In this document: piece by piece, positions 42,486 through 53,115 of the stretch
Numbering within the stretch: position 1 is the stretch's first letter
Layout: each line of letters opens with the position of its first letter
From: Desulfobacteraceae bacterium
GTDB taxonomy: Bacteria > Desulfobacterota > Desulfobacteria > Desulfobacterales > Desulfosalsimonadaceae
Assembly: GCA_011390465.1 (NCBI GenBank)
Contig: JAABSH010000007.1
Coordinates: 1-64,000 of the forward strand
Direction of reading: 5' to 3'
Length of the DNA: 64,000 bases
Notes under the pieces: model-generated
What the model saw: only the letters and a program-made list of their open reading frames with translations
Databases searched by the model: none
What the model was told of the DNA's origin: nothing
Position numbers and translations under genes: made by a program

Positions 42486-44153
42486 ATGGCAGATATATAC
42501 GGCGGTCATCTGGCGGCAAAATACATGAAAAAAGTGGAAAATGTTACCACGGTATTTACCATTTCCGGCGGGCACATTGAAAATATTTTAGACGGGTTTA
42601 CGGAATACAAGATCCGCACCATTGATGTGCGCCACGAACAGGCGGCCGCCATGATGGCTCATGCCTGGTCGATTTACAATAATGAACCCGGAGTCTGTCT
42701 GGTCACCGCCGGGCCGGGATTTACCAATGCCCTGACCGGCATTGCCAATGCGTATCTGGACAACGCGCCCCTGGTGGTGCTGTGCGGCCGCCATCCCCTG
42801 CGGGATGATCTGACCGGTGCGCTGCAGGAAATGAACCAGATTGATATGGTCAAACCCGTCACCAAATGGAGCGCCACCTGCTATGATATCAAACGGATTC
42901 CGGAATATCTGTCCATCGCGTTTCGCCAGGCCACCATGGGACGCCCCGGCCCGGTGTTTCTGGAACTGCCCCCGGATATTCTGTTTGCCGCCGTGGATGA
43001 AAAGGATGTCACCCTGCCGCGGCGCCGGCGGCATAAATCCGCCACCCACCCGGATGAATCAGAACTGGCCGAAGCCGCCCGGATAATCAACAGCGCCCAG
43101 CGGCCCATGTTTATCGGCGGCAGCGGGGTCCGGATGAGCGGCAGCACGGATGCCCTGAAAGCGTTTATCGAAAAAACCGGTTTTCCTTTTGCCCTTTTAA
43201 ATAACGGCCGGGGCGCATTGCCGGACAGTCATTCTCAGTCCATCAATGACGGCGGATTTACCGGCATCATGACCGGCGCGCCTCAGGCGGATGTCATTGT
43301 TGCCGCCGGCGTCCGGTTTAACTGGGTCATGCAGGCCACTAAACTGTTTCCGGATGCTAAAGTGGTGCGCATTGACATTGAAGAATCAGAAATCGACCGA
43401 AACCGGACATCGGAAGTCGGGTTGGTGGGCGACTGCGGATATGTGTTCAATCAGCTTCTGCCCCTGGTTCAAAAAAGAGATCATAGTCAGTGGATCACGA
43501 AACTGAGAAATGCGTACAAGGCGTTTATGATCACCGAACTGGAACAGCGGGAAAATCCGTCTGATCCCATCCATCCCAACCGGCTGGTGGCGCAGATTAT
43601 GGCAACATTCGGAGAAGACGCCTATTACGTGGCCGACGGCGGGGACACCAGTTATTACGGCCTGGCCGGTTTTGCGTCGTCAAACCCGGCAGGCGTCCTG
43701 GTGCCGGCCGGAGCGCTGCTGGGATGCCTGGGCACGGGAATCCCTTTTGCCATGGCCGGCAAACTGTCCCACCCGGATAAGCCGGTGATTGTCTTGAACG
43801 GGGACGGGTCTTTCGGGTTCAACAGCATGGAATTCGATACCGCGGTGCGGCACGATATTCCCATTATCTGCGTGGTCAATAATGACTGTGCCTGGGGAAT
43901 GATCAAGCATTCTCAGGGCATGAGTATCGGAAAAGACCGGTGCACCTGTGCGGAACTCGGGATGCGGCACTATGAGAAAATGGTGGAAGGCTTAGGGGGG
44001 TACGGCGAACTGGTTACGGAGGACGATCAAATTATTCCGGCCCTGCGGCGGGCCATGGAATCGGGAAAACCGGCATGCATCAATGTGGTGACAGACCCCA
44101 CGGTCACCAGCCCGGCCACGGTGATGTTTTATCAGAATTTTGCGGATTTGTAA
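42486..44153 (+). CDS. Thiamine-diphosphate-dependent lyase/synthase
   Basis: 555-residue enzyme of the acetolactate synthase/oxalyl-CoA decarboxylase/2-hydroxyacyl-CoA lyase group. The catalytic Glu is in VRHEQAAAMMAHA, with TAGPGFTNALTGIANA in the PYR domain, a central domain (PMFIGGSGVRMSG), and the TPP/Mg site NGDGSFGFNSMEFDTAVRHD ending in NNDCAWGM. Exact substrate is uncertain; IlvB is less likely as no small subunit or ilv gene is near. With an SCP2-like lipid carrier in front and a VOC protein behind, a 2-hydroxyacyl-CoA lyase role is a reasonable guess. Confidence 0.85.
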   Translation: MADIYGGHLAAKYMKKVENVTTVFTISGGHIENILDGFTEYKIRTIDVRHEQAAAMMAHAWSIYNNEPGVCLVTAGPGFTNALTGIANAYLDNAPLVVLCGRHPLRDDLTGALQEMNQIDMVKPVTKWSATCYDIKRIPEYLSIAFRQATMGRPGPVFLELPPDILFAAVDEKDVTLPRRRRHKSATHPDESELAEAARIINSAQRPMFIGGSGVRMSGSTDALKAFIEKTGFPFALLNNGRGALPDSHSQSINDGGFTGIMTGAPQADVIVAAGVRFNWVMQATKLFPDAKVVRIDIEESEIDRNRTSEVGLVGDCGYVFNQLLPLVQKRDHSQWITKLRNAYKAFMITELEQRENPSDPIHPNRLVAQIMATFGEDAYYVADGGDTSYYGLAGFASSNPAGVLVPAGALLGCLGTGIPFAMAGKLSHPDKPVIVLNGDGSFGFNSMEFDTAVRHDIPIICVVNNDCAWGMIKHSQGMSIGKDRCTCAELGMRHYEKMVEGLGGYGELVTEDDQIIPALRRAMESGKPACINVVTDPTVTSPATVMFYQNFADL

Positions 44154-44172
44154 TACAATGACCAAGGGTAAA

Positions 44173-44380
44173 TGTAACCCCAGAGGTCACAGAGGTCACG
44201 GAGAAAAATAGTATTATCTGGTTATCCACTTAACTCAAGTTGCCGGGTTTATATCGGTATCGAAATCGGGATCGGATTCGATAGCGATTTCGATACCGAT
44301 ACCGATGGCTGAACTTGAACCGGATAAGCAAATTTTTGTTTATGTTCCCCTCTCTGTGTGCCCTGTGTCCTGCGTGGTAA
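44173..44380. repeat. Nested long palindrome of about 210 bases
   Basis: A perfect 16-base inverted repeat, ATCGGTATCGAAATCG (44253-44268) and CGATTTCGATACCGAT (44285-44300), sits in the middle. Outside it TCAAGTT/AACTTGA and TTATCC/GGATAA pair, and the outer arms are CACAGAGG-type words (44180-44207) against CTCTGTGTGCCCTGTG words (44351-44370). It fills the spacer between the TPP enzyme and the VOC gene. Related in the outer arms to 15033-15118. Confidence 0.65.
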
Positions 44381-44409
44381 CTATTTTAAAATTGGTGTGA
44401 GGTAACGTT

Positions 44410-45021
44410 ATGATTTATCTGGATGATTTGTTAACGGCGGACGATTTCAACCAGGAAGTCAACGACCTGGGCGGTGGTTTTATGGCGCGACATGGACTGG
44501 AAAAAGTCCATCAATTGGGTCTGGTGGTGCCGGATGTGGAACAGGCGGCTGAAGCGCTCGAGCAAAAAGGGATTGGCCCGTTTTTTATTGCTGCCGGCTC
44601 ACCGCGGTTCTGGACGGAAAAAGGAGAAAACCGCTCAGTTGCCGGAAAGTTGGGGCTGGCGTATCACAGGGGAGTGGAGCTGGAGCTGCTGGAACCTGTG
44701 GAAGATTCGAATTTTTACACCCGGAGCCTGGCCCCGGATGGCCGGCCAGTGGTTCAGCATCTGGGATTTCTGGTCAGGGAAACAGATGCCTGGGTCCGAA
44801 AGGCAGAAAAGGCCGGAATGGGGGTGTGGGTCCGGGGAAAGTTGATTGCCTGGCCCATGTCCGCGGATTTTGCCTATCTGGAACCTGAGCCGGAATCCGG
44901 GTTGATCATGGAATTTATTGACTGGCGGTTTTTGGGGATCAATACCAGCCCGTTTCCGGGTTTTTTGAAAATGTTGGGAAGGCTGGAGAAATGGTCGGGA
45001 AAACGCTGTGTTGCCCTGTGA
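44410..45021 (+). CDS. VOC (glyoxalase-fold) family protein
   Basis: 203 residues. Two beta-alpha-beta-beta-beta modules of the vicinal oxygen chelate fold: the first opens with KVHQLGLVVPDVEQAAEALE, the second with VVQHLGFLVRETDAWVRKA, and Glu in LELLEPVE and MEFIDW would serve as metal ligands together with the two His. Methylmalonyl-CoA epimerase and glyoxalase I belong here, but the sequence is not close enough to assign. It follows the TPP enzyme across a palindromic spacer; a shared pathway is possible. It converges with the mechanosensitive channel gene. Confidence 0.75.
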   Translation: MIYLDDLLTADDFNQEVNDLGGGFMARHGLEKVHQLGLVVPDVEQAAEALEQKGIGPFFIAAGSPRFWTEKGENRSVAGKLGLAYHRGVELELLEPVEDSNFYTRSLAPDGRPVVQHLGFLVRETDAWVRKAEKAGMGVWVRGKLIAWPMSADFAYLEPEPESGLIMEFIDWRFLGINTSPFPGFLKMLGRLEKWSGKRCVAL

Positions 45022-45033
45022 TTCGTCTTTCTT

Positions 45034-45119
45034 TCCTTCAGCCTTTCAGCTTCCCCCTTTGAGCTTTCAGCTTCCACCTTTCAGCTTCCAGCTTTCACCT
45101 TTCACCTTCCCCTTCAACC
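45034..45119 (-). repeat. Period-7 array at mscS-like gene 3' end
   Basis: About twelve units on the plus strand (TTTGAGC, TTTCAGC, TTCCACC, TTTCAGC, TTCCAGC, TTTCACC twice, then TTCCCC, TTCAACC). The stop codon of the channel gene on the minus strand is inside the array (45114-45116). Purine-rich in the sense of that gene. Confidence 0.75.
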
Positions 45120-45929
45120 TTCTTTATGCTCATAAATATGCACATCCCGCTGGGGAAAGGGGATGCTGATGCCATTGGCGTCAAAGGCTTTTTTGAGTTT
45201 TTCCGTGAGGCTGAAATAAACATCCCAGTAGTCACCGGTTTTGACCCAGGGCCGCACCGCGAAATTAACGCTGGAATCTCCCAGTTCAATCACCGCCACC
45301 AGGGGCTCAGGGGTACTCAACAGCCGGGTTTCTTCCGCCAGCACATTATTAATAACCTGCCGGGCCTTGTCAATATCATCGCTGTACCCGATTCCCATTA
45401 TCAGATCCATCCGGCGGGTGCCTTTGATGGTCCAGTTAACAATGTTGCCTTCAGTGAGCTTGGAATTGGGTACGATAATGGTTTTATTGTCCGGCGAGGT
45501 GAGAATCGATGTAAAAATGGATATTTCCTCCACTGTGCCGGCCACGCCGGCGCCTTCAATATAATCTCCCACCTTGAACGGCTTGAAGATGATCATGAGA
45601 AAACCCGCGGCAAAATTGGAAAGTGACCCCTGAAGGGCCAGCCCAATGGCAAGGCCGGCGGCACCGACGATGGCAATAAACGACGCCGTCTGAATGCCAA
45701 GCTGGCCTAAGGCGGCGATAATGACAAACGCGATCAGCGCGATGTAGGTTAAACTGCAGACAAACCGGACAATGGTAGGGTCGATTTTGCTGCGCTCCAT
45801 CAACCGTTCAATAATTTTGGTGACCAGTTTGGCAATAAGCCGGCCGAAAAACAGAATCAGCAGGGCAAAAATCAGTTTGATGCCGTAAATCGTGGCAAGT
45901 TCCCATACTTTTTGAAGCACTTGTTCCAT
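45114..45929 (-). CDS. Small-conductance mechanosensitive channel, MscS family
   Basis: 271-residue inner-membrane channel, about the size of E. coli MscS (286). Three membrane helices (about 15-35, 60-82, 88-110) are followed by the pore helix GAAGLAIGLALQGSLSNFAAG with its Gly/Ala pattern, and the beta domain FKPFKVGDYIEGAGVAGTVEEI. It opens under membrane tension to protect from osmotic shock. It begins 33 bases after the b-type subunit gene of the ATP synthase F0 operon, in the place where the F1 genes would be expected. Confidence 0.93.
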   Translation of the reverse strand: MEQVLQKVWELATIYGIKLIFALLILFFGRLIAKLVTKIIERLMERSKIDPTIVRFVCSLTYIALIAFVIIAALGQLGIQTASFIAIVGAAGLAIGLALQGSLSNFAAGFLMIIFKPFKVGDYIEGAGVAGTVEEISIFTSILTSPDNKTIIVPNSKLTEGNIVNWTIKGTRRMDLIMGIGYSDDIDKARQVINNVLAEETRLLSTPEPLVAVIELGDSSVNFAVRPWVKTGDYWDVYFSLTEKLKKAFDANGISIPFPQRDVHIYEHKEG

Positions 45930-45962
45930 GGGGGGGTGTTTTCCTTAATTCTCAGGATAACA

Positions 45963-46574
45963 TCAGGCGGATGCTTGGGAAACGGTTGAAAGACTGTCAA
46001 TAAACAGTTTCTGGAGTTTTGCCTGATCCGTACGGGTGATTTCGGACGGTAGCCTGGACAATGCCAGGGTGCTGGCTTCATCCACCAGTTCCGCCATAAA
46101 CCGGGATTTGGCCTGGACGATCTGGTTGGCGGCTTTCATTTTTTCCGCCTCAATAATATGTTTTCCCTGGACTTTGGCATTTTCAATAATTTCCCGGCGG
46201 GCATTTTCACCGTCTGAGATAATACGGGCTTTGATCTGCTCGAACCGGACATTGCTCTCTTCAATCATTGTCGCCGCTTTTTTAATTTTGGCATCCAGGG
46301 TATTTTTTTCTTTCTGAAGCCGGTGAATCTTATCGGCAATTTCATTCTTCTGGTCATTCAAAAAGTTCATCAATGGTTTGCGACCGTATTTGACAATGAT
46401 AAACGCAAGAATGAAAAAGTTTATCCACAGCATGACCTCGTCATAAACCGGTCGCCACTCTCCGCCGGCTGCTGCTGCCGGCGCCGCCATGAAAACAAGC
46501 ATGACAGCGGCCCGGACGGTGATGAGAAGATAGCGCCCGGCATATTTTCGGTATGGAAAGGTTTCATTATTCAT
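45963..46574 (-). CDS. atpF: ATP synthase F0 subunit b (second copy, b'-like)
   Basis: 203 residues from the ATG at 46574, which overlaps the stop of the preceding b gene by 8 bases; a longer frame to 46673 reads into that gene and is rejected. An N-terminal hydrophobic stretch (about 15-35, AVMLVFMAAPAAAAG) looks like a signal or first helix. It is followed by a membrane helix (MLWINFFILAFIIVKYG) and a long charged coiled coil (FLNDQKNEIADKIHRLQKEK). It forms half of the peripheral stalk that ties F1 to the a subunit. The delta gene usually following is absent. Confidence 0.88.
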   Translation of the reverse strand: MNNETFPYRKYAGRYLLITVRAAVMLVFMAAPAAAAGGEWRPVYDEVMLWINFFILAFIIVKYGRKPLMNFLNDQKNEIADKIHRLQKEKNTLDAKIKKAATMIEESNVRFEQIKARIISDGENARREIIENAKVQGKHIIEAEKMKAANQIVQAKSRFMAELVDEASTLALSRLPSEITRTDQAKLQKLFIDSLSTVSQASA

Positions 46575-47025
46575 TGGCCAGTCTCCGATCCAAAACTTTT
46601 TCCATAATAATGACAGCCAATTTCTCAGATTCCGCTTTGATATCCTGGCTGGCTTTTGAGATTTGGCGGTCAATAAATTGCTGGCTTTCTTTTTTTATGG
46701 CCGCAATTTCTTCCCGGGATGTCTCAAGAATCTCCTTGGCCTGGGCAGCGCCTTCTTTCTCCAGCTTCTCTTTTTCCTGGTTGGCTGTTTCGATGGCCGT
46801 CATTTCCTGAATTCTGACCTGTTCATTGATTGTCGCAAGTTCGGTTTCTGATTTTTCAATGTTCGCGGAAATCTCATTCAAGTGTTCTTCCCGTTCGACC
46901 ATGATATGGCTGAGGGGCCGGAACATGATCCGGTTGATCAGAAAAAGGAATATGAGAAACGAGACCAGCTGGACAATCAGCGTTTCATTAATTGATATCA
47001 GTGCAATGTTGCTGACAATATGCAT
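46567..47025 (-). CDS. atpF: ATP synthase F0 subunit b
   Basis: 152 residues. One membrane helix (LIVQLVSFLIFLFLINRIMF, about 16-35) with the Arg-x3-Arg cytoplasmic edge, then a coiled coil of about 115 residues (VEREEHLNEISANIEKSE onward) that forms the peripheral stalk. Similar in size to E. coli b (156). Two different b genes next to each other imply a heterodimeric b/b' stalk. Ends 8 bases inside the next gene. Confidence 0.93.
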   Translation of the reverse strand: MHIVSNIALISINETLIVQLVSFLIFLFLINRIMFRPLSHIMVEREEHLNEISANIEKSETELATINEQVRIQEMTAIETANQEKEKLEKEGAAQAKEILETSREEIAAIKKESQQFIDRQISKASQDIKAESEKLAVIIMEKVLDRRLANE

Positions 47026-47057
47026 CAGTCGTGTCCGTAATAATGATTATACTGAAA

Positions 47058-47306
47058 TTAAACAACAAACAGAAGAAGCAGCGCAATAACCAGCGCGTAA
47101 ATGCCTGTAGACTCTGAAACTGCCTGCCCTACCAGCATGGTCCGGGTCAAAAGACCGGCTTCCGCGGGATTGCGGCCGATGGCTTCGCACGCTTTTGCTG
47201 CGGCCAGACCTTCACCCACGCCCGGGCCGATGGCGCCCAGTCCCATTGATAATCCTGCTCCCAGAAACGCTGCCGCCTGAACAATGTGAATACCTTCAAT
47301 AGCCAT
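47058..47306 (-). CDS. atpE: ATP synthase subunit c, single hairpin, Na+-type
   Basis: 82 residues, two helices. The ion site matches the Na+ type: Glu32 (PGVGEG), Val63, Glu65, Ser66, Thr67 and Tyr70 (AVSESTGIYAL). Numbering equals that of Ilyobacter tartaricus c, with Glu for Gln at 32, as in the two-carboxylate c ring of Fusobacterium. The loop RNP is present. It follows, by 107 bases, a gene for a four-hairpin c protein, so the rotor ring may hold both kinds. Confidence 0.95.
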   Translation of the reverse strand: MAIEGIHIVQAAAFLGAGLSMGLGAIGPGVGEGLAAAKACEAIGRNPAEAGLLTRTMLVGQAVSESTGIYALVIALLLLFVV

Positions 47307-47414
47307 GGTTAAACCTCCAAATTGATAATGATGTGATCGTGATCAGTATTTTAAATTAACAATTGATGAATATTTTATCCAAAAAATAAAGTAGTTATTT
47401 CCGGCCGGTGCCGG

Positions 47415-48389
47415 TTACGCCACGAAAATAAGGATCAGTGAAATAACCAGCGCGTAAATGCCTGTAGATTCCGCCACCGCCTGGCCCACCAGCATGCTTC
47501 GGGTCAGAGTGGCCGTCCCTTCTTCATTGCGGGCGATCCATTTAACTGCACTCTGTCCCGCAAATCCTTCTCCAATCCCTGGACCGATGGCGCCGATACC
47601 CATGCATAGCCCCGCGCCCAAGAGAGCCATTGACGCGGCAATGGATTCAGCCGCCGGAAAGTTTTTGAAAATCAGAATACAGGCGATCAGTAACCCGTAA
47701 ATAGCCGTTGTCTCGGTGACTGCCATGCCAAGCAACATAACATTGGTAGTTCTCGTGGCGCCTGCCGGCTGCCGGGCAATGCCTTCACAGCCGGATTTCG
47801 CCACAAGTCCTTCTCCGATCCCGGAGCCGATGGCGCCCAGACCGGAAGCCAGGCCGGCGCCAAGGATCGCCGCCCAGGTGGGGGACACCGGCTTGCCGGT
47901 GAAGTCAATAAATAATAAAATCAAAGAGGTAACAAGGGCAAAAATGGCCGGACTTTGGGCAATGGCAGAACCCGCAAGCATAATCGTCGTGATCCGGTTT
48001 TTCATTTGCGGTTGTCTTTCAATGCCGATACATGCTTCAGCCGTGGGCAGTCCCGAACCAATCCCGGAACCAATGGCACCGAGTCCCATGCATAAGCCTG
48101 CCGCGAGGAAAGTAGCGATCAGCAGGGGTGAAGTATGGGAAAAATTGGAAAACAGGAGCAGCATGGCAATAATGAGCGCAAAAATCGATGCCGTTTCCGC
48201 GATGGCCTGACCTACCAGCATGGTTTTGAACAGGTCCCCTGATAATTGGGGATTTCGGGCGATCGCCTCATTTGCTTTTGAAGCCGTATATCCTTCACCA
48301 ATGGCCGCACCGATAGCGCCGAACCCCATTGCCATGCCGCCGCCCACAAAGGCGGCGACTTTCATCCAAACTTGAATATCATCCGTCAT
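47415..48389 (-). CDS. atpE: Fused four-hairpin ATP synthase subunit c
   Basis: 324 residues made of four c-type hairpins with a period of 80-81, giving eight helices. TM1 ion-site residues are Glu32, Ser112, Glu193 and Glu274; the TM2 carboxylate positions are Glu65, Gln145, Glu226 and Glu307. Hairpin 2 has thus lost both acidic residues (SGIGSGL; IAQSPAIFAL) and should bind no ion, while hairpins 1, 3 and 4 keep the Glu-Ser/Thr pattern of Na+-type rings. The loops keep an RNP or RQP-type polar turn in hairpins 1-3; in hairpin 4 it is RNE. Linkers of 6-11 residues join the hairpins. Acetobacterium woodii has a two-hairpin c1 with one lost carboxylate, and some archaea have longer fusions. 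The start lies 3 bases after atpB. Confidence 0.95.
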   Translation of the reverse strand: MTDDIQVWMKVAAFVGGGMAMGFGAIGAAIGEGYTASKANEAIARNPQLSGDLFKTMLVGQAIAETASIFALIIAMLLLFSNFSHTSPLLIATFLAAGLCMGLGAIGSGIGSGLPTAEACIGIERQPQMKNRITTIMLAGSAIAQSPAIFALVTSLILLFIDFTGKPVSPTWAAILGAGLASGLGAIGSGIGEGLVAKSGCEGIARQPAGATRTTNVMLLGMAVTETTAIYGLLIACILIFKNFPAAESIAASMALLGAGLCMGIGAIGPGIGEGFAGQSAVKWIARNEEGTATLTRSMLVGQAVAESTGIYALVISLILIFVA

Positions 48390-48392
48390 GAT

Positions 48393-49067
48393 TTATTTTA
48401 CCTGTACCGCGATATAAACAATCGTAAGCATTGTGAAAACAAAAGCCTGAATGGCGCCCACAAAAATGGTAAAAAACGCATTCAGAAACGGTGGGAGCAA
48501 AATGCTGTAAACCAAATGCGACACCACCAGAATGATGATGGATCCGCCCATGATGTTGCCGAAAAGCCGGAAGGAGATGGAAACCACTTTTGCCAGTTCG
48601 CCGATGAGATTCAGCGGCATCATGAAAAAAATCGGCTCAAAATATTCTTTGATATATCCTTTGAATCCTTTTGCCCGGATCCCGGCATAATGGGCGATGG
48701 CAAATCCCATGAGCCCCATGCTGAGCGGCGTGTTCAGATCTTTGGTGGGTTCTTCCATAAACGGCAGCATGCCGCACCAGTTGGATGCCAGAAGAAACAT
48801 GAACAGGGCGCAGATCAGGGGGCCGTATTTTTTCCCGAGTTCTTCGTCCATGGCGTCTTCGGTGAGCCCATAGAGCTGATTGATGAAGAGTTCGCCCACC
48901 ACCTGCACCGTGCCGGGAATGATCCGTCGGCTTTTTGACGCCAGATAGCCGAACAGGAGGAGAAAGCCGAAAATCGCCCATGTCATGACAATGACTCCAA
49001 TGTTGAAGGTCATGTCATGGCCGAAAAACGGAACAATGAGTTGATTGATTCTGCCTAGTTCTTCCAT
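48393..49067 (-). CDS. atpB: ATP synthase F0 subunit a
   Basis: 224 residues with five to six membrane helices. The stator Arg essential for rotation is in VSISFRLFGNIMGGS, and the last helix contains GAIQAFVFTMLTIVYI with the conserved Gln. The loop EEPTKDLNTPLSMGLM matches bacterial a subunits. It forms the ion half-channels against the c ring. It overlaps the upstream atpI by 13 bases. Confidence 0.95.
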   Translation of the reverse strand: MEELGRINQLIVPFFGHDMTFNIGVIVMTWAIFGFLLLFGYLASKSRRIIPGTVQVVGELFINQLYGLTEDAMDEELGKKYGPLICALFMFLLASNWCGMLPFMEEPTKDLNTPLSMGLMGFAIAHYAGIRAKGFKGYIKEYFEPIFFMMPLNLIGELAKVVSISFRLFGNIMGGSIIILVVSHLVYSILLPPFLNAFFTIFVGAIQAFVFTMLTIVYIAVQVK

Positions 49068-49468
49068 AATAAGTTTTCAGTGCTATTTTTTTTTCGTGTT
49101 GAAAAATAAACCTGGCTGATGATGCCGTCTGCCAGGATGACCATCTGGATCATAAAGAGGCCGACTACCGTGCCCCAGAGGTTGAACTGAGAAAGTTTCA
49201 GGGATATGGCTATGGGAACGGCAAGCAGGCCGTAGCGGATGATAATCCACAGAAAAGAAAAAATCGTGGCCTTCTTTCGGGTCGTACCGATCCGTGACGG
49301 CAAGGATTCCGCCATGAGAATAAAATTGACAATACTGAAAATGGTTCCCAGGATCAGACCCTTGCCCACGGGCTTGAAACCGAGAACAAAAAGCCCGAGC
49401 CCGGCACCCAGAGCAAGAAGAATGGCCAGGGAACCGTATTTTTTCTGGATGTGTTTAATCTGTTCCAT
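49055..49468 (-). CDS. atpI: ATP synthase subunit I
   Basis: 137 residues with four predicted helices (SLAILLALGAGLGLFVLGF; GLILGTIFSIVNFILMA; and two more). AtpI-type proteins help assemble the c ring in several bacteria. Position (second in the F0 operon, directly before atpB), size and hydropathy support the call. Overlaps both neighbours by 13-14 bases, so translation is coupled. Confidence 0.85.
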   Translation of the reverse strand: MEQIKHIQKKYGSLAILLALGAGLGLFVLGFKPVGKGLILGTIFSIVNFILMAESLPSRIGTTRKKATIFSFLWIIIRYGLLAVPIAISLKLSQFNLWGTVVGLFMIQMVILADGIISQVYFSTRKKNSTENLLWKN

Positions 49469-49811
49469 TTGAACTGTCCTTTGACTTGTTCACTGGTGAC
49501 TTGTTGGCCTGCGGCCCATTGAGTGGCGGTTTGGTTGCCGGTCCATACGGGGGAACTGCTGGGTGGGCATCCTTTTCTTCATATATTTCCATAATCTGCC
49601 GGTAAGTCACCATTGCGCCGCCGATTACGCCCAGAAAAATAAAAATGGTTACAAAAATACCTCTGGTGCCAAGCCATTTGTCGATCTGAAAACCCACAAA
49701 AAAACAAAAACCAATACATCCGGCCATGGTCAGCCCCAGCTGCATGACGATCTGCGTATTTTCCGCCCAGGGCCGGTTTTTCTGATAATCAAAAATTTTT
49801 TTATTGTTCAT
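49455..49811 (-). CDS. AtpZ-like small membrane protein
   Basis: 118 residues, two helices (IVMQLGLTMAGCIGFCFFVG and GIFVTIFIFLGVIGGAMVTY) with GFQIDKWLGT between them, the usual pattern of AtpZ/AtpI-family proteins that open F-ATPase operons. The C-terminal 45 residues are polar and Pro/Lys-rich. First gene of the operon, with a promoter about 35-60 bases upstream. The ribosome site is weak. A role in assembly or in Mg2+/Ca2+ supply has been proposed for the family. Confidence 0.8.
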   Translation of the reverse strand: MNNKKIFDYQKNRPWAENTQIVMQLGLTMAGCIGFCFFVGFQIDKWLGTRGIFVTIFIFLGVIGGAMVTYRQIMEIYEEKDAHPAVPPYGPATKPPLNGPQANKSPVNKSKDSSNGTD

Positions 49812-49845
49812 CTCAAAATTTATATTAAATAGGATGAAAGAAGGT

Positions 49846-49875
49846 TTGATAGCAGATTCTGCTTTCCTGCGTCAA
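49846..49875 (-). promoter_or_regulatory. Candidate promoter of the F0 operon with internal palindrome
   Basis: On the minus strand TTGACG (49870-49875) and TATCAA (49846-49851) are 18 bases apart. The spacer holds AGCAGA-t-TCTGCT (49851-49863), a perfect 13-base palindrome that could be an operator. The rest of 49812-50079 is A+T-rich with no gene. Confidence 0.45.
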
Positions 49876-50079
49876 GGAATTCTTTAAAAAAATTTTTCCC
49901 TTTAAAATCAAGGAGTTTTTATTTGCAGTCACGGAAGGAGATATTTTTATTGCCAAAAACCTGAAAAGAAAATGCATGGGAAAGGGGAAGGCGAAAACCG
50001 TGTCTTGATTGGATGCCTTTCAGACATTTTGCCGGCCGGCGTACTGGCATGCGCTGGAAAATCCGGCATTAAAAACGCA

Positions 50080-51222
50080 TCAGGACCCCGTCAGCACCTG
50101 GGGGATGATCCGCTTGAGCTGGGTCTGCATGAAAAACCCGTTTCCTTCGGGCGCCATGAGGCCCACAAACCGGAAATTGCCCTGTTTGTAGACATCCGCG
50201 CTCATCATCATGATAACGGCTTTTCCGGTATGGATGGTAAAGCTGGTGCACCGGTCCAGGCCTTTCTGGTTGACGGTTTTGCTGCAACTGGCAAACAGGG
50301 TGTTTAATTCCTTGGCAAAATCCTTGATGTCGATGGATTCCGCGGCCACATCCGTGGCCAGTACATTGCCCGCGGGATTTAAAATCGCCAGGCCGAGATA
50401 GCCTTTGATGGTCCGCAGGATATTGACATGACGGGTCAGGGCGCTCTGGAGTTTGGAGGGGTTGCCGGCAGACGGCGCGGATGGCGGCGCGGCCTGCGAA
50501 ACCGGGGTCGGCTGTCCGGCGGCGTTGGGGCCGGGGGCAGGGCGGGGTTTGGGCTTTTCCTTCCATACGGCACCGGCGATTTCCATGAGTTTGGTGTTAA
50601 TTTTCTGGACGGCTCTGTTTTTGGGCAGGCTTGAAAAGGAAATGCCCACGCCTTCCCATTTTGCCATTTCCCTTGCGGCCTGGTCCCCGGTCAGGTTATT
50701 GTGCTGGGCGTCCAGCAGCACACCGGTGTCAAAATACATCAAGCCTTTTTTCCGGCCGCCGCTGGTGACTTCCATACAGCCGGTTTTTCGGCCCAGCACC
50801 AGCAGGGGCAAAAAATGTCTGAGGGTCATGCCTCGCATGGCCAGGCCCTCGTCCTTCAGGTTCAGCCCGACAAAAATGATGGAGGCCAGTGCCCCGAACT
50901 CAAAGGGTTTTTCAAGATAATACAGCATATCCCCATGCCCGCTGCGGTCTTTAAACCAGGGCCGGGGTTTACCCGGTTCCATCATCACCACACAGGGGGT
51001 GGCGGGATAATTCCGCGTCATGTACGCCAGCAGCTGGACCCCGTCAAGATCCGGCAGAATGAGATCCGTTATGAGAACCGTGATTTTTGTTTTTTTCAGG
51101 ATATCGACAGCGGTTTTTCCGCTCTGGGTGGTTAAGAGTTCAAAGTGATGCAGTTCTTTGAAACCCTTTTCAATTTTTTTCAGGTTTTCAGCATCTTTGT
51201 CGACAATAAGGACTTTATCCAT
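50080..51222 (-). CDS. Response regulator with DUF4388 and roadblock-like domain
   Basis: About 380 residues. A receiver domain (KVLIVDKDAENLKKIE; phospho-acceptor Asp in LITDLILPDLDGVQ) is followed by a DUF4388-like domain (GRKTGCMEVTSGGRKKGLMYF, GVLLDAQHNNLTGDQAA), a Pro/Ala-rich linker (about 235-265) and a C-terminal roadblock/LC7-like domain (GYLGLAILNPAGNVLATDVA). In myxobacteria and relatives these modules act with small GTPases such as MglA; no GTPase gene is adjacent. The ATG at 51222 (after GGTGAAAATA) is preferred over a GTG three codons upstream. No DNA-binding domain. Confidence 0.85.
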   Translation of the reverse strand: MDKVLIVDKDAENLKKIEKGFKELHHFELLTTQSGKTAVDILKKTKITVLITDLILPDLDGVQLLAYMTRNYPATPCVVMMEPGKPRPWFKDRSGHGDMLYYLEKPFEFGALASIIFVGLNLKDEGLAMRGMTLRHFLPLLVLGRKTGCMEVTSGGRKKGLMYFDTGVLLDAQHNNLTGDQAAREMAKWEGVGISFSSLPKNRAVQKINTKLMEIAGAVWKEKPKPRPAPGPNAAGQPTPVSQAAPPSAPSAGNPSKLQSALTRHVNILRTIKGYLGLAILNPAGNVLATDVAAESIDIKDFAKELNTLFASCSKTVNQKGLDRCTSFTIHTGKAVIMMMSADVYKQGNFRFVGLMAPEGNGFFMQTQLKRIIPQVLTGS

Positions 51223-51450
51223 TATTTTCACCGGTAATTATGAGTGTTTCAGGCGGATGCCTGGGAAACCGGGCGTGGTTCTCTGCCGGGATCGGCCATC
51301 GCAGCCTGCACCGAACGTGTAAGTATTTTGATAAGTTAGTTATTGCCGGTCTGTCAATAGAATTCTGGGGTAATGGCATGATATCTTGATAAAAACAGGT
51401 TTTACAAGGTTGCGGATGCCCTTTTTGATAATTTGTGATACGTAACTGGA

Positions 51451-53115
51451 ATGCTGATGAGAATCGTTTATATTTTTAGTTTCTGGTGCATTGCTCTGGC
51501 CGTTGCCGGCCAGGGGCCGGCATGGGCGGAAACGTTTAAAATTGCCAGCTACAATGTGGAAAATCTGTTTGACCTGAAAACGGATAAAACAGAATATCCG
51601 GATTACCAGCCCAACGGCAGGACCGGATGGACCCGGGCCATGCTTTCGGCAAAGCTTGCCAATATCACCCGGGTGATCAAAGATCTGGATGCCGATATTG
51701 TGGCGCTTCAGGAAATCGAAACCCGAACCGCCCTGGACCTGCTGCAGCAGTCCCTGGCCAATGCCGGCGCAGTCTATGAATATAGCGCCATTTCGCGTCA
51801 GCCGTCCGCTGCAGTGAAATGCGCGCTTTTGTCCCGGTTTCCGGTGACCGCGCAGGAATCCATTGCCGTTGGCAAAACAGACCGGGCCTCCGCCCGGCAT
51901 ATCCTGAAAGTGCGCTTAAAAATTGCGGACCGGCCCCTGATTGTTTACGTAAATCACTGGAAATCCAAGGCCGGCCCGGAAAGCCGGCGCATGGTCAGTG
52001 CTGAAACACTTGCCCGGGAAATCGAAAGCCTTGGCTGTGATACGGATTATGTGCTCACAGGTGATTTTAATTCCGATTACAACGAATATGAAACATTTCA
52101 GAAGATAGAGCGGTTAAATGACACCGGCGGCCGCACCGGGATCAATCATTTGCTGGGCACCACGGCAGAAGGCCGGCTGGTGGATGAATCGTTTCTGGCA
52201 GCTCAGAACGGGTGCGGGTTTTTGTATAATCTCTGGCTGGAAGTGCCGGCGTATCGGCGCTGGTCGGTTAATTTTTTCGGCCGGAAAAACAGCCCGGACA
52301 GCATCATTGTGCCCAAGGCCCTCTATGATGACAACGGCATTTCTTATGTGGATGATTCTTTTGACCGGTTTGATCCGGATTATCTGTTTGCGGAAAACCG
52401 GGTGTTTCGGTGGCAGCGGGCTGCCCGGAACGGAAAACCCGGGACCGGCCGGCATCTGGGACGCGGGTTTTCAGATCACTTGCCGGTGGTTGCAAAATTT
52501 TCCACGGCCCCGTTCCGCATTGCCGGGTCTTCAGCATCTGCCGCCTCCGGGCCTCCTGCAGTGGCGACCATTGCGGATTTGTACCGTTATGACCGCCATG
52601 ACAGGGATGCTTTTCCGGTGCGGCTTGAAAATGCCGTGGTCATTTACAGACACCGGGAAAATGCCGTGCTGAAACAGAGAAATGGCCGGGCCGTTTATGT
52701 TTACCGGGCCGCCCCGGACCTTGCCACGGGCAGGGTCTGCCATCTTACCGTGACAGCGGTGAACCGATTTTACGGAAATTTCGAAATTACCGGGCTTCGG
52801 GATATTCAGCCCGTGGATACGGTGCCGGATCTGTCGCCATTTTATCTGTCCGGTAATGGGTACGGTAAAGTTTCCGGCCGGGAAATTGATTTTTCCGCGC
52901 CGGAATTATGCAATGAGGTGATCTCTCAGGCCTCCGGCATTGTTGCCGATGGCTGGTTTTTCTATGGTGACAATCACAAAATCAGGATTTATTTTAAAGA
53001 TCCTGCCCGGGCGCCAAAAGATTTTTCCAGTATTGTGTTGCATCAAGTGCGGATCGGATACCATCATCATCCTGAAATTATAGTCGAAAAATTAGAACAG
53101 AGCAAAACGCGCTGA
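51451..53115 (+). CDS. Exported endonuclease/exonuclease/phosphatase-family protein
   Basis: 554 residues. A signal peptide (VYIFSFWCIALAVAGQGPAWA, cleaved near AWA-ET) precedes an EEP catalytic domain (about 28-355): Asn in IASYNVENLF, Glu in ALQEIETRT, His in YVNHWKSKA, Asp and Asn in TGDFNSDYN, and the Asp-His pair in SDHLPVVAKF. The C-terminal 190 residues (ATIADLYRYDRH onward) resemble the OB-fold region of secreted nucleases such as YhcR. Thus a secreted or periplasmic nuclease is likely, perhaps for phosphate or nucleotide scavenging; a phosphatase activity is the alternative. Single gene. Confidence 0.85.
   Translation: MLMRIVYIFSFWCIALAVAGQGPAWAETFKIASYNVENLFDLKTDKTEYPDYQPNGRTGWTRAMLSAKLANITRVIKDLDADIVALQEIETRTALDLLQQSLANAGAVYEYSAISRQPSAAVKCALLSRFPVTAQESIAVGKTDRASARHILKVRLKIADRPLIVYVNHWKSKAGPESRRMVSAETLAREIESLGCDTDYVLTGDFNSDYNEYETFQKIERLNDTGGRTGINHLLGTTAEGRLVDESFLAAQNGCGFLYNLWLEVPAYRRWSVNFFGRKNSPDSIIVPKALYDDNGISYVDDSFDRFDPDYLFAENRVFRWQRAARNGKPGTGRHLGRGFSDHLPVVAKFSTAPFRIAGSSASAASGPPAVATIADLYRYDRHDRDAFPVRLENAVVIYRHRENAVLKQRNGRAVYVYRAAPDLATGRVCHLTVTAVNRFYGNFEITGLRDIQPVDTVPDLSPFYLSGNGYGKVSGREIDFSAPELCNEVISQASGIVADGWFFYGDNHKIRIYFKDPARAPKDFSSIVLHQVRIGYHHHPEIIVEKLEQSKTR

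Follow-up and report, generated by a model that had tools for sequence, protein, structure and literature searches.

The closest described system is that of Acetobacterium woodii and Clostridium aceticum, where a c subunit with two hairpins (c1), the second blind, that is, without its ion site (Q....QT), is encoded beside a normal c (according to the available text of PMC7911925). The accepted ion-to-ATP ratio of A. woodii is 3.3 (PMC5662883, available part). The rotor determines this ratio, and for F-type enzymes with 8-15 c subunits the accessible portion of PMC12229609 gives 2.7 to 5 ions per ATP. More generally, the ProAD survey (PMC11738941) allows for c/K subunits of two or more hairpins, any of which may have or lack a site; its available text gives no account of the series described here or of FO sets lacking F1. 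The fused c protein analysed here has A. woodii c1 as its best PDB match (4bem_J) both by sequence (5e-26) and by fold (Foldseek 2.1e-6, rmsd 1.6 over 161 columns). Brandt and Mueller, in a 2015 work on hybrid rotors, reportedly list a dozen species with one F-type and one V-type c gene. For sulfate reducers, no description of a fused c was found in the literature searched, most subscription papers lying outside its scope; in the accessible text of the Desulfobacterium autotrophicum genome paper, ATP synthase is mentioned once, in a legend (PMC2702500).

The window, the whole stretch of 64,000 nucleotides that was analysed, comes from a draft genome of a Desulfobacteraceae bacterium. On its minus strand it carries the membrane genes of an F-type ATP synthase in the order Z-I-a-c4-c-b-b':

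49455..49811, minus strand, atpZ-like gene (Pfam PF09527, ATPase_gene1)
49055..49468, minus strand, atpI (Pfam PF03899)
48393..49067, minus strand, subunit a, atpB (Pfam PF00119), with the motif FRLFGN
47415..48389, minus strand, four-hairpin c subunit of 324 aa, pattern site-blind-site-site, ATG start
47058..47306, minus strand, single-hairpin c subunit of 82 aa with the full two-carboxylate Na+ motif (Pfam and motif)
46567..47025, minus strand, b-type subunit (Pfam PF00430)
45963..46673, minus strand, second b-type subunit (Pfam PF00430), start listed as TTG

The real start of the second b-type gene may lie downstream of the TTG. The Arg of FRLFGN in subunit a is the rotor-facing arginine. 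A ribosome site, GGAGG, stands immediately 5' of the 82-aa single c gene. Scans for promoters and terminators gave 13 and 11 sites against 6.4 and 7.0 in shuffled sequence, and we do not use them as evidence; no Rfam RNA family matched within 44000-51500. The next gene downstream of the cassette encodes an MscS-like channel (45114-45929, minus strand); among 42 annotated loci, a same-strand MscS match was present only at one from the same genus (L142), with one other on the opposite strand (L145).

The 324-aa protein is matched four times by ATP-synt_C (Pfam; 211.8 bits, cut-off 24), with hairpin periods of 80, 81 and 81 residues, and the two-helix hairpin profile (PF00137) is accompanied by the F-type partners a, I, Z, b and b'. 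At the TM1 positions the four hairpins carry Glu32, Ser112, Glu193 and Glu274, and at the TM2 positions Glu65, Gln145, Glu226 and Glu307, so that an acid is present in TM2 of every hairpin except the second. The sequence-only reading, which had proposed four c hairpins at a period of 80-81 residues with both acids lost in hairpin 2 alone (Ser112 and Gln145), is thereby borne out. Read at P28,E32 / V63,E65,S66,T67,Y70 in Ilyobacter numbering, the sites of hairpins 1 to 4 are AE/IETAF, SS/IQSPF, SE/VETTY and PE/VESTY, and that of the 82-aa protein is PE/VESTY. The two-carboxylate motif (E32,V63,E65,S66,T67,Y70) is complete in the single c and in hairpin 4; hairpin 3 departs from it at T66, and hairpin 1 at I63, T66, A67 and F70. 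AlphaFold predicts helices compatible with four hairpins at moderate confidence (mean pLDDT 73.5, pTM 0.74), from an alignment of only 4 sequences, with five models spanning 35.9 to 73.5, and the prediction is silent on ring composition. That same reading had also considered a collapse or join of separate c genes, which is very unlikely here, since assemblies other than this one carry the same four-hairpin gene (89% and 86% identity).

Queried with the fused protein (E<=1e-24), two genome samples that both include the window's own genome gave a multi-hairpin c match in 169 of 389 genomes for the order, leaving 220 without, and in 43 of 395 for the phylum, 9 of these 43 again belonging to the order. 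We read 176 distinct proteins from 174 genomes, 24 of them elsewhere in the phylum and 150 of the order, fewer than the 169 with a match. One truncated protein (G023) is outside the pattern tally of 175 but has a row in the subunit-a tree. The 175 complete proteins have 3-6 hairpins each, one to five of them blind, in these patterns (+, TM2 Glu kept; o, lost):

three hairpins: +o+ 8, +oo 3
four hairpins: +o++ 18, +o+o 1, +oo+ 64, +ooo 60
five hairpins (12 of 175): +ooo+ 5, +oooo 7
six hairpins: +oooo+ 1, +ooooo 8

Other four-hairpin c genes, for which a search of Desulfobacterota had been suggested, occur widely. The form, presented earlier as unfamiliar in a sulfate reducer, is widespread in the order, ranging from 3 to 6 hairpins with up to 5 blind. 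The window's genus alone has nine fused genes, two +o++, three +oo+ and four +o+, and the window's one-blind form is among the mildest of the series. Three loci from Clostridiales Family XIII (L054-L056) were dropped as single-hairpin proteins, and the viral contigs searched held no relative of the fused c.

The suggestion that the Gln145/Ser112 loss might be conserved also finds its answer in these proteins. The TM2 Glu (E65) is kept in hairpin 1 of all 175 and lost from hairpin 2 of all 175, and in 428 of the 429 blind hairpins Gln has taken its place, with Ser in the remaining one. Every one of the 429 has lost the TM1 acid too (S 149, G 135, N 87, A 56, V 1, I 1). Position 66 is S or T in every one of them, and Arg comes first in the polar loop in 393. 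In Fusobacterium nucleatum, a subunit's site is completed by Ser66 and the Val63 carbonyl of the one beside it (PMC3692424, available text); by analogy, a duty to the neighbour's site may explain why residues at positions 63 and 66 are retained while the hairpin's own ligands go. The longest blind run per protein is 1 in 27 proteins, 2 in 67, 3 in 65, 4 in 8 and 5 in 8. Hairpin 1, the sole remaining site in 78 of the 175 (+oo, +ooo, +oooo and +ooooo), has F70 throughout and A (162) or S (13) at position 67. Lacking the complete Na+ motif, it would seem not to be a plain Na+ site. The F70 and A/S67 that replace Y70 and T67 may give it weaker or altered ion binding compared with the other sites.

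We propose a model where the 324-aa gene encodes a fused rotor segment in a mixed Na+ rotor like that of A. woodii, taken much further, with the cassette using the genome's F1, and we put the probability of this at roughly 70%. The protein would be a segment of a Na+-type F-ATP synthase, of which few copies, perhaps one, would join many single c subunits in one c ring, and this mixed ring would turn past subunit a and its arginine motif. Each blind hairpin would occupy a place in the ring without carrying an ion, and if fused and single c are both built in, the ring would have fewer sites than hairpins and would probably pass fewer ions per ATP.

Blind hairpins have a dN/dS of 0.062 and active ones of 0.071, in 37 disjoint pairs of four-hairpin proteins that share a pattern; the pairs were chosen at 82-98% protein identity, which favours low values, in both hairpin kinds alike. 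These ratios indicate that blind hairpins are under purifying selection, as active ones are. The neighbouring a subunits (168 loci and an outgroup) were placed on a FastTree tree, errors in which would inflate the counts of change. It requires at least 35 changes in blind-hairpin number, against 70-86 with shuffled labels (100 sets), and at least 14 in total hairpin number, against 28-32 (100 sets). A ring of mixed composition could also hold blind hairpins for assembly or for a fixed ring size, with selection not acting on the ion/ATP ratio. Hairpin 2, blind in all proteins with the 3-hairpin forms included, stays constant while the rest varies, as such a role would have it; however, the changes in blind number along the tree, and its differences within the window's genus, speak against a structural role of this kind, which we regard as unlikely although deserving of some weight.

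Among loci with at least 600 bases downstream, a single-hairpin c lies next to the fused c in 166 of 169, the exceptions being G071 (a second copy), G069 and G048. Its motif, at 168 loci, is PE/VESTY in 161 and PQ/VESTY in 6, and is cut in one; Arg comes first in its loop in only 66 of 170, the residue there being mostly Lys. The predicted ribosome-site energy averages -10.3 kcal/mol for the single c and -5.5 kcal/mol for the multi-hairpin c, and the single c has the stronger site in 161 of 167 pairs, the multi-hairpin c in 5, with 1 tie, a comparison that uses predicted starts in related sequences and leaves 8 of 175 unscorable. Such a predicted bias is in keeping with a ring in which many single units stand beside a few fused ones. 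The mixed ring suggested in the sequence-only reading is supported as far as sequence can carry it, since the pair is nearly fixed and the loss of sites is conserved and under selection. Two loci (L074 in G197 and L207 in G057) have two single-hairpin c frames beside the fused c. At four loci with six-hairpin forms (L039, L040, L041 and L042), position 32 of the single c holds, in place of Glu, the Gln found in Ilyobacter.

If the ring were instead built from the fused protein alone, for example from three four-hairpin or two six-hairpin copies, the single c would serve another ring or stage. The totals are suggestive, in that 4x3, 3x4 and 2x6 all give 12 hairpins, and three loci have no adjoining single c. 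Yet five-hairpin forms do not fit a 12-hairpin ring, +ooooo taken twice would leave 2 sites only, and both the adjoining single c and its stronger predicted ribosome site are close to universal, which makes a ring of this composition improbable.

No F1 genes accompany the cassette in the window. In all frames, no match (E<=1e-3) was found there to the genome's own delta, alpha, gamma, beta or epsilon. The host assembly (3.9 Mb in 119 contigs, listed as 100% complete, with dsrA above the curated cut-off and two RnfC_N matches) has three F- or N-type membrane gene sets, namely that of the window, an I-a-c set on C42 and an N-ATPase on C50, and one canonical F1, b'-b-delta-alpha-gamma-beta-epsilon, on C61. 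The sequence-only reading does not mention that the cassette lacks F1, nor that the genome has a second a/c set and just one canonical F1. The c subunit on C42 has the ion site CQ/MESLY, with L at 67. ProAD gives a rule for calling an H+-type from an incomplete Na+ set (PMC11738941, available text), by which the C42 set, with part of the Na+ set absent and L67, would be called H+-type. The N-ATPase was set aside as a partner of the cassette, having its own alpha and beta. Within its operon, a PF00999 Na+/H+ exchanger gene (L008:4687-5937) lies between PF09527 (AtpQ-like) and atpR.

Most relatives resemble the window. Of 86 loci with at least 5.5 kb downstream, read on the same strand, 79 are without F1 genes and 7 have them (G631, G651, G516, G589, G420, G409 and G559), none from the order; a weak 27-bit match at G133, the sole one on the other strand, was left uncounted. 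The seven have the order Z-a-cN-c1-b'-b-delta-alpha-gamma-beta-epsilon, and these complete F1FO operons show that the fused c goes with a true ATP synthase. Among 25 selected genomes, most of them near-complete, a reading by gene order and frame length gives exactly one canonical F1 in 21 (in G203 with a partial beta) and two in none; it is incomplete in G089, G183 and G216, and none is seen in G611, where the contig carrying the Na+ operon breaks off. Two full a genes other than the N-type are present in all 25, with a further fragment in G183. The F1 operon is freestanding in G660, G104, G707, G150, G045, G024 and G148, and in G409, G516 and G589 the only canonical F1 lies in the Na+ operon, which leaves the H+-type a-c set an orphan. 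No b gene was detected beside the H+-type a-c sets at any of the 12 a_H loci fetched. The simplest account would be that both membrane parts use one F1, and most likely the window's cassette, too, uses the one canonical F1 of its genome, though an FO that is silent or put to another use is also conceivable.

Alternatively, an FO cassette without F1 might be a duplicate in decay, or might only let Na+ through, passively or under regulation, instead of being a motor of its own. The 79 loci without same-strand F1 genes and the lone canonical F1 of the window's genome would sit well with this. Against it stand the purifying selection on every hairpin, the cassette's own b subunits, the complete operons of relatives and the arginine motif of subunit a, RL[FY]GN being present in 166 of 169 neighbouring a subunits (exceptions L110, a fragment, L111 and L236), and we hold a passive or decaying cassette to be doubtful at best. 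The L110 and L111 loci both belong to G183, which thus has two fused-c loci, one of them beside the subunit a fragment. An assembly artefact or pseudogene is negligible as an explanation: many of the genomes are drafts in many contigs, but the fused genes occur in 174 genomes, several assembled in one contig, as open frames with dN/dS near 0.06.

Returning to a mixed Na+ rotor driven by or driving the genome's F1, simple arithmetic illustrates what blind hairpins could do. In an assumed 11-hairpin ring with one fused copy, sites would number 10 for +o++, 9 for +oo+, 8 for +ooo and 6 for +ooooo, and the ions per ATP would be 3.33, 3.0, 2.67 and 2.0. Synthesis at 2.0 ions per ATP and 50 kJ/mol requires 259 mV, so the forms with the most blind hairpins seem better suited to pumping Na+ at the expense of ATP. 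Ratios this low would be of use for exporting Na+ with ATP or where the sodium-motive force is high, and the window's one-blind form could work in either pump or synthase mode. A sodium-pumping Rnf2 is abundant and constitutive in six studied Desulfobacteraceae (PMC11887813, in the text available), and so a Na+ gradient may be at hand.

The longest blind runs are harder to accommodate. The Bacillus PS3 enzyme with a fused c10 lost ATP synthesis through one E56Q exchange (PMC8809890, available part), and on that basis a row of neighbouring blind hairpins, which reaches five in 8 of 175 proteins, should fail under the usual scheme. Five blind hairpins span about 160 degrees of an 11-hairpin ring, and the present half-channel scheme does not readily allow a site-free arc of that extent. 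A further reading, somewhat less likely than not, is that one F1 head serves two interchangeable motors of different gearing, an H+ motor (I-a-c) and a Na+ motor geared by its blind count, with a site-free arc of up to five hairpins.

If the blind units are built in, they would alter the Na+ cost of each ATP. Most relatives encode this membrane motor without its own catalytic head. The graded natural series, with 1-5 blind of 3-6 hairpins and variation even within the window's genus, makes the relation of rotor sites to energy yield and to pump or synthase mode testable. Ion/ATP ratios near 2 may exist. The blind arcs would challenge the usual rotation scheme, given the Glu to Gln result in PS3 (PMC8809890, in its available part), and an F1 shared by two FO parts, if true, would amount to a novel means of changing the coupling ion.

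Compared with the A. woodii type, the arrangement here is alike in having a fused c of Na+-type beside a normal c gene, with hairpin 1 active and hairpin 2 blind. It differs in size, with 3-6 hairpins (four in the window) and up to five blind, whereas the acetogens have exactly two hairpins. The TM1 ligand of the blind hairpin, kept as Q in acetogens, is lost here (S, G, N, A, rarely V or I), and the single c has the two-carboxylate motif in place of the acetogens' Q. Further, the A. woodii type sits inside an F1FO operon, whereas the window is without F1 genes and only 7 of 86 relatives' loci have them. The single c and hairpin 4 share E32, V63, E65, S66, T67 and Y70 with F. nucleatum (motif in the available text of PMC3692424), but the ring described there has 11 single-hairpin subunits and 11 sites, with no blind hairpin (PMC3692424, same text).

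The c/K subunits of A/V-type enzymes likewise have fused hairpins (M. jannaschii 3, M. kandleri 13, E. hirae 2), several with lost ligands (PMC2359735, accessible text). M. kandleri, however, keeps all its sites according to that text, and the partners in the window are F-type a, b, AtpI and AtpZ; identity as an A/V-type K subunit was set aside, the Pfam-matched neighbours being F-type. As an N-ATPase does, the cassette adds a further rotary ATPase beside the F-type, and the host has a true N-ATPase as well (C50), but N-ATPases have their own alpha, beta and AtpR and a beta-first order, all of which the window's cassette is without. In sum, the fused c represents a genuine variant of the hybrid Na+ rotor, both conserved and widespread, which exceeds every described case that we found in its number of hairpins and of blind ones.
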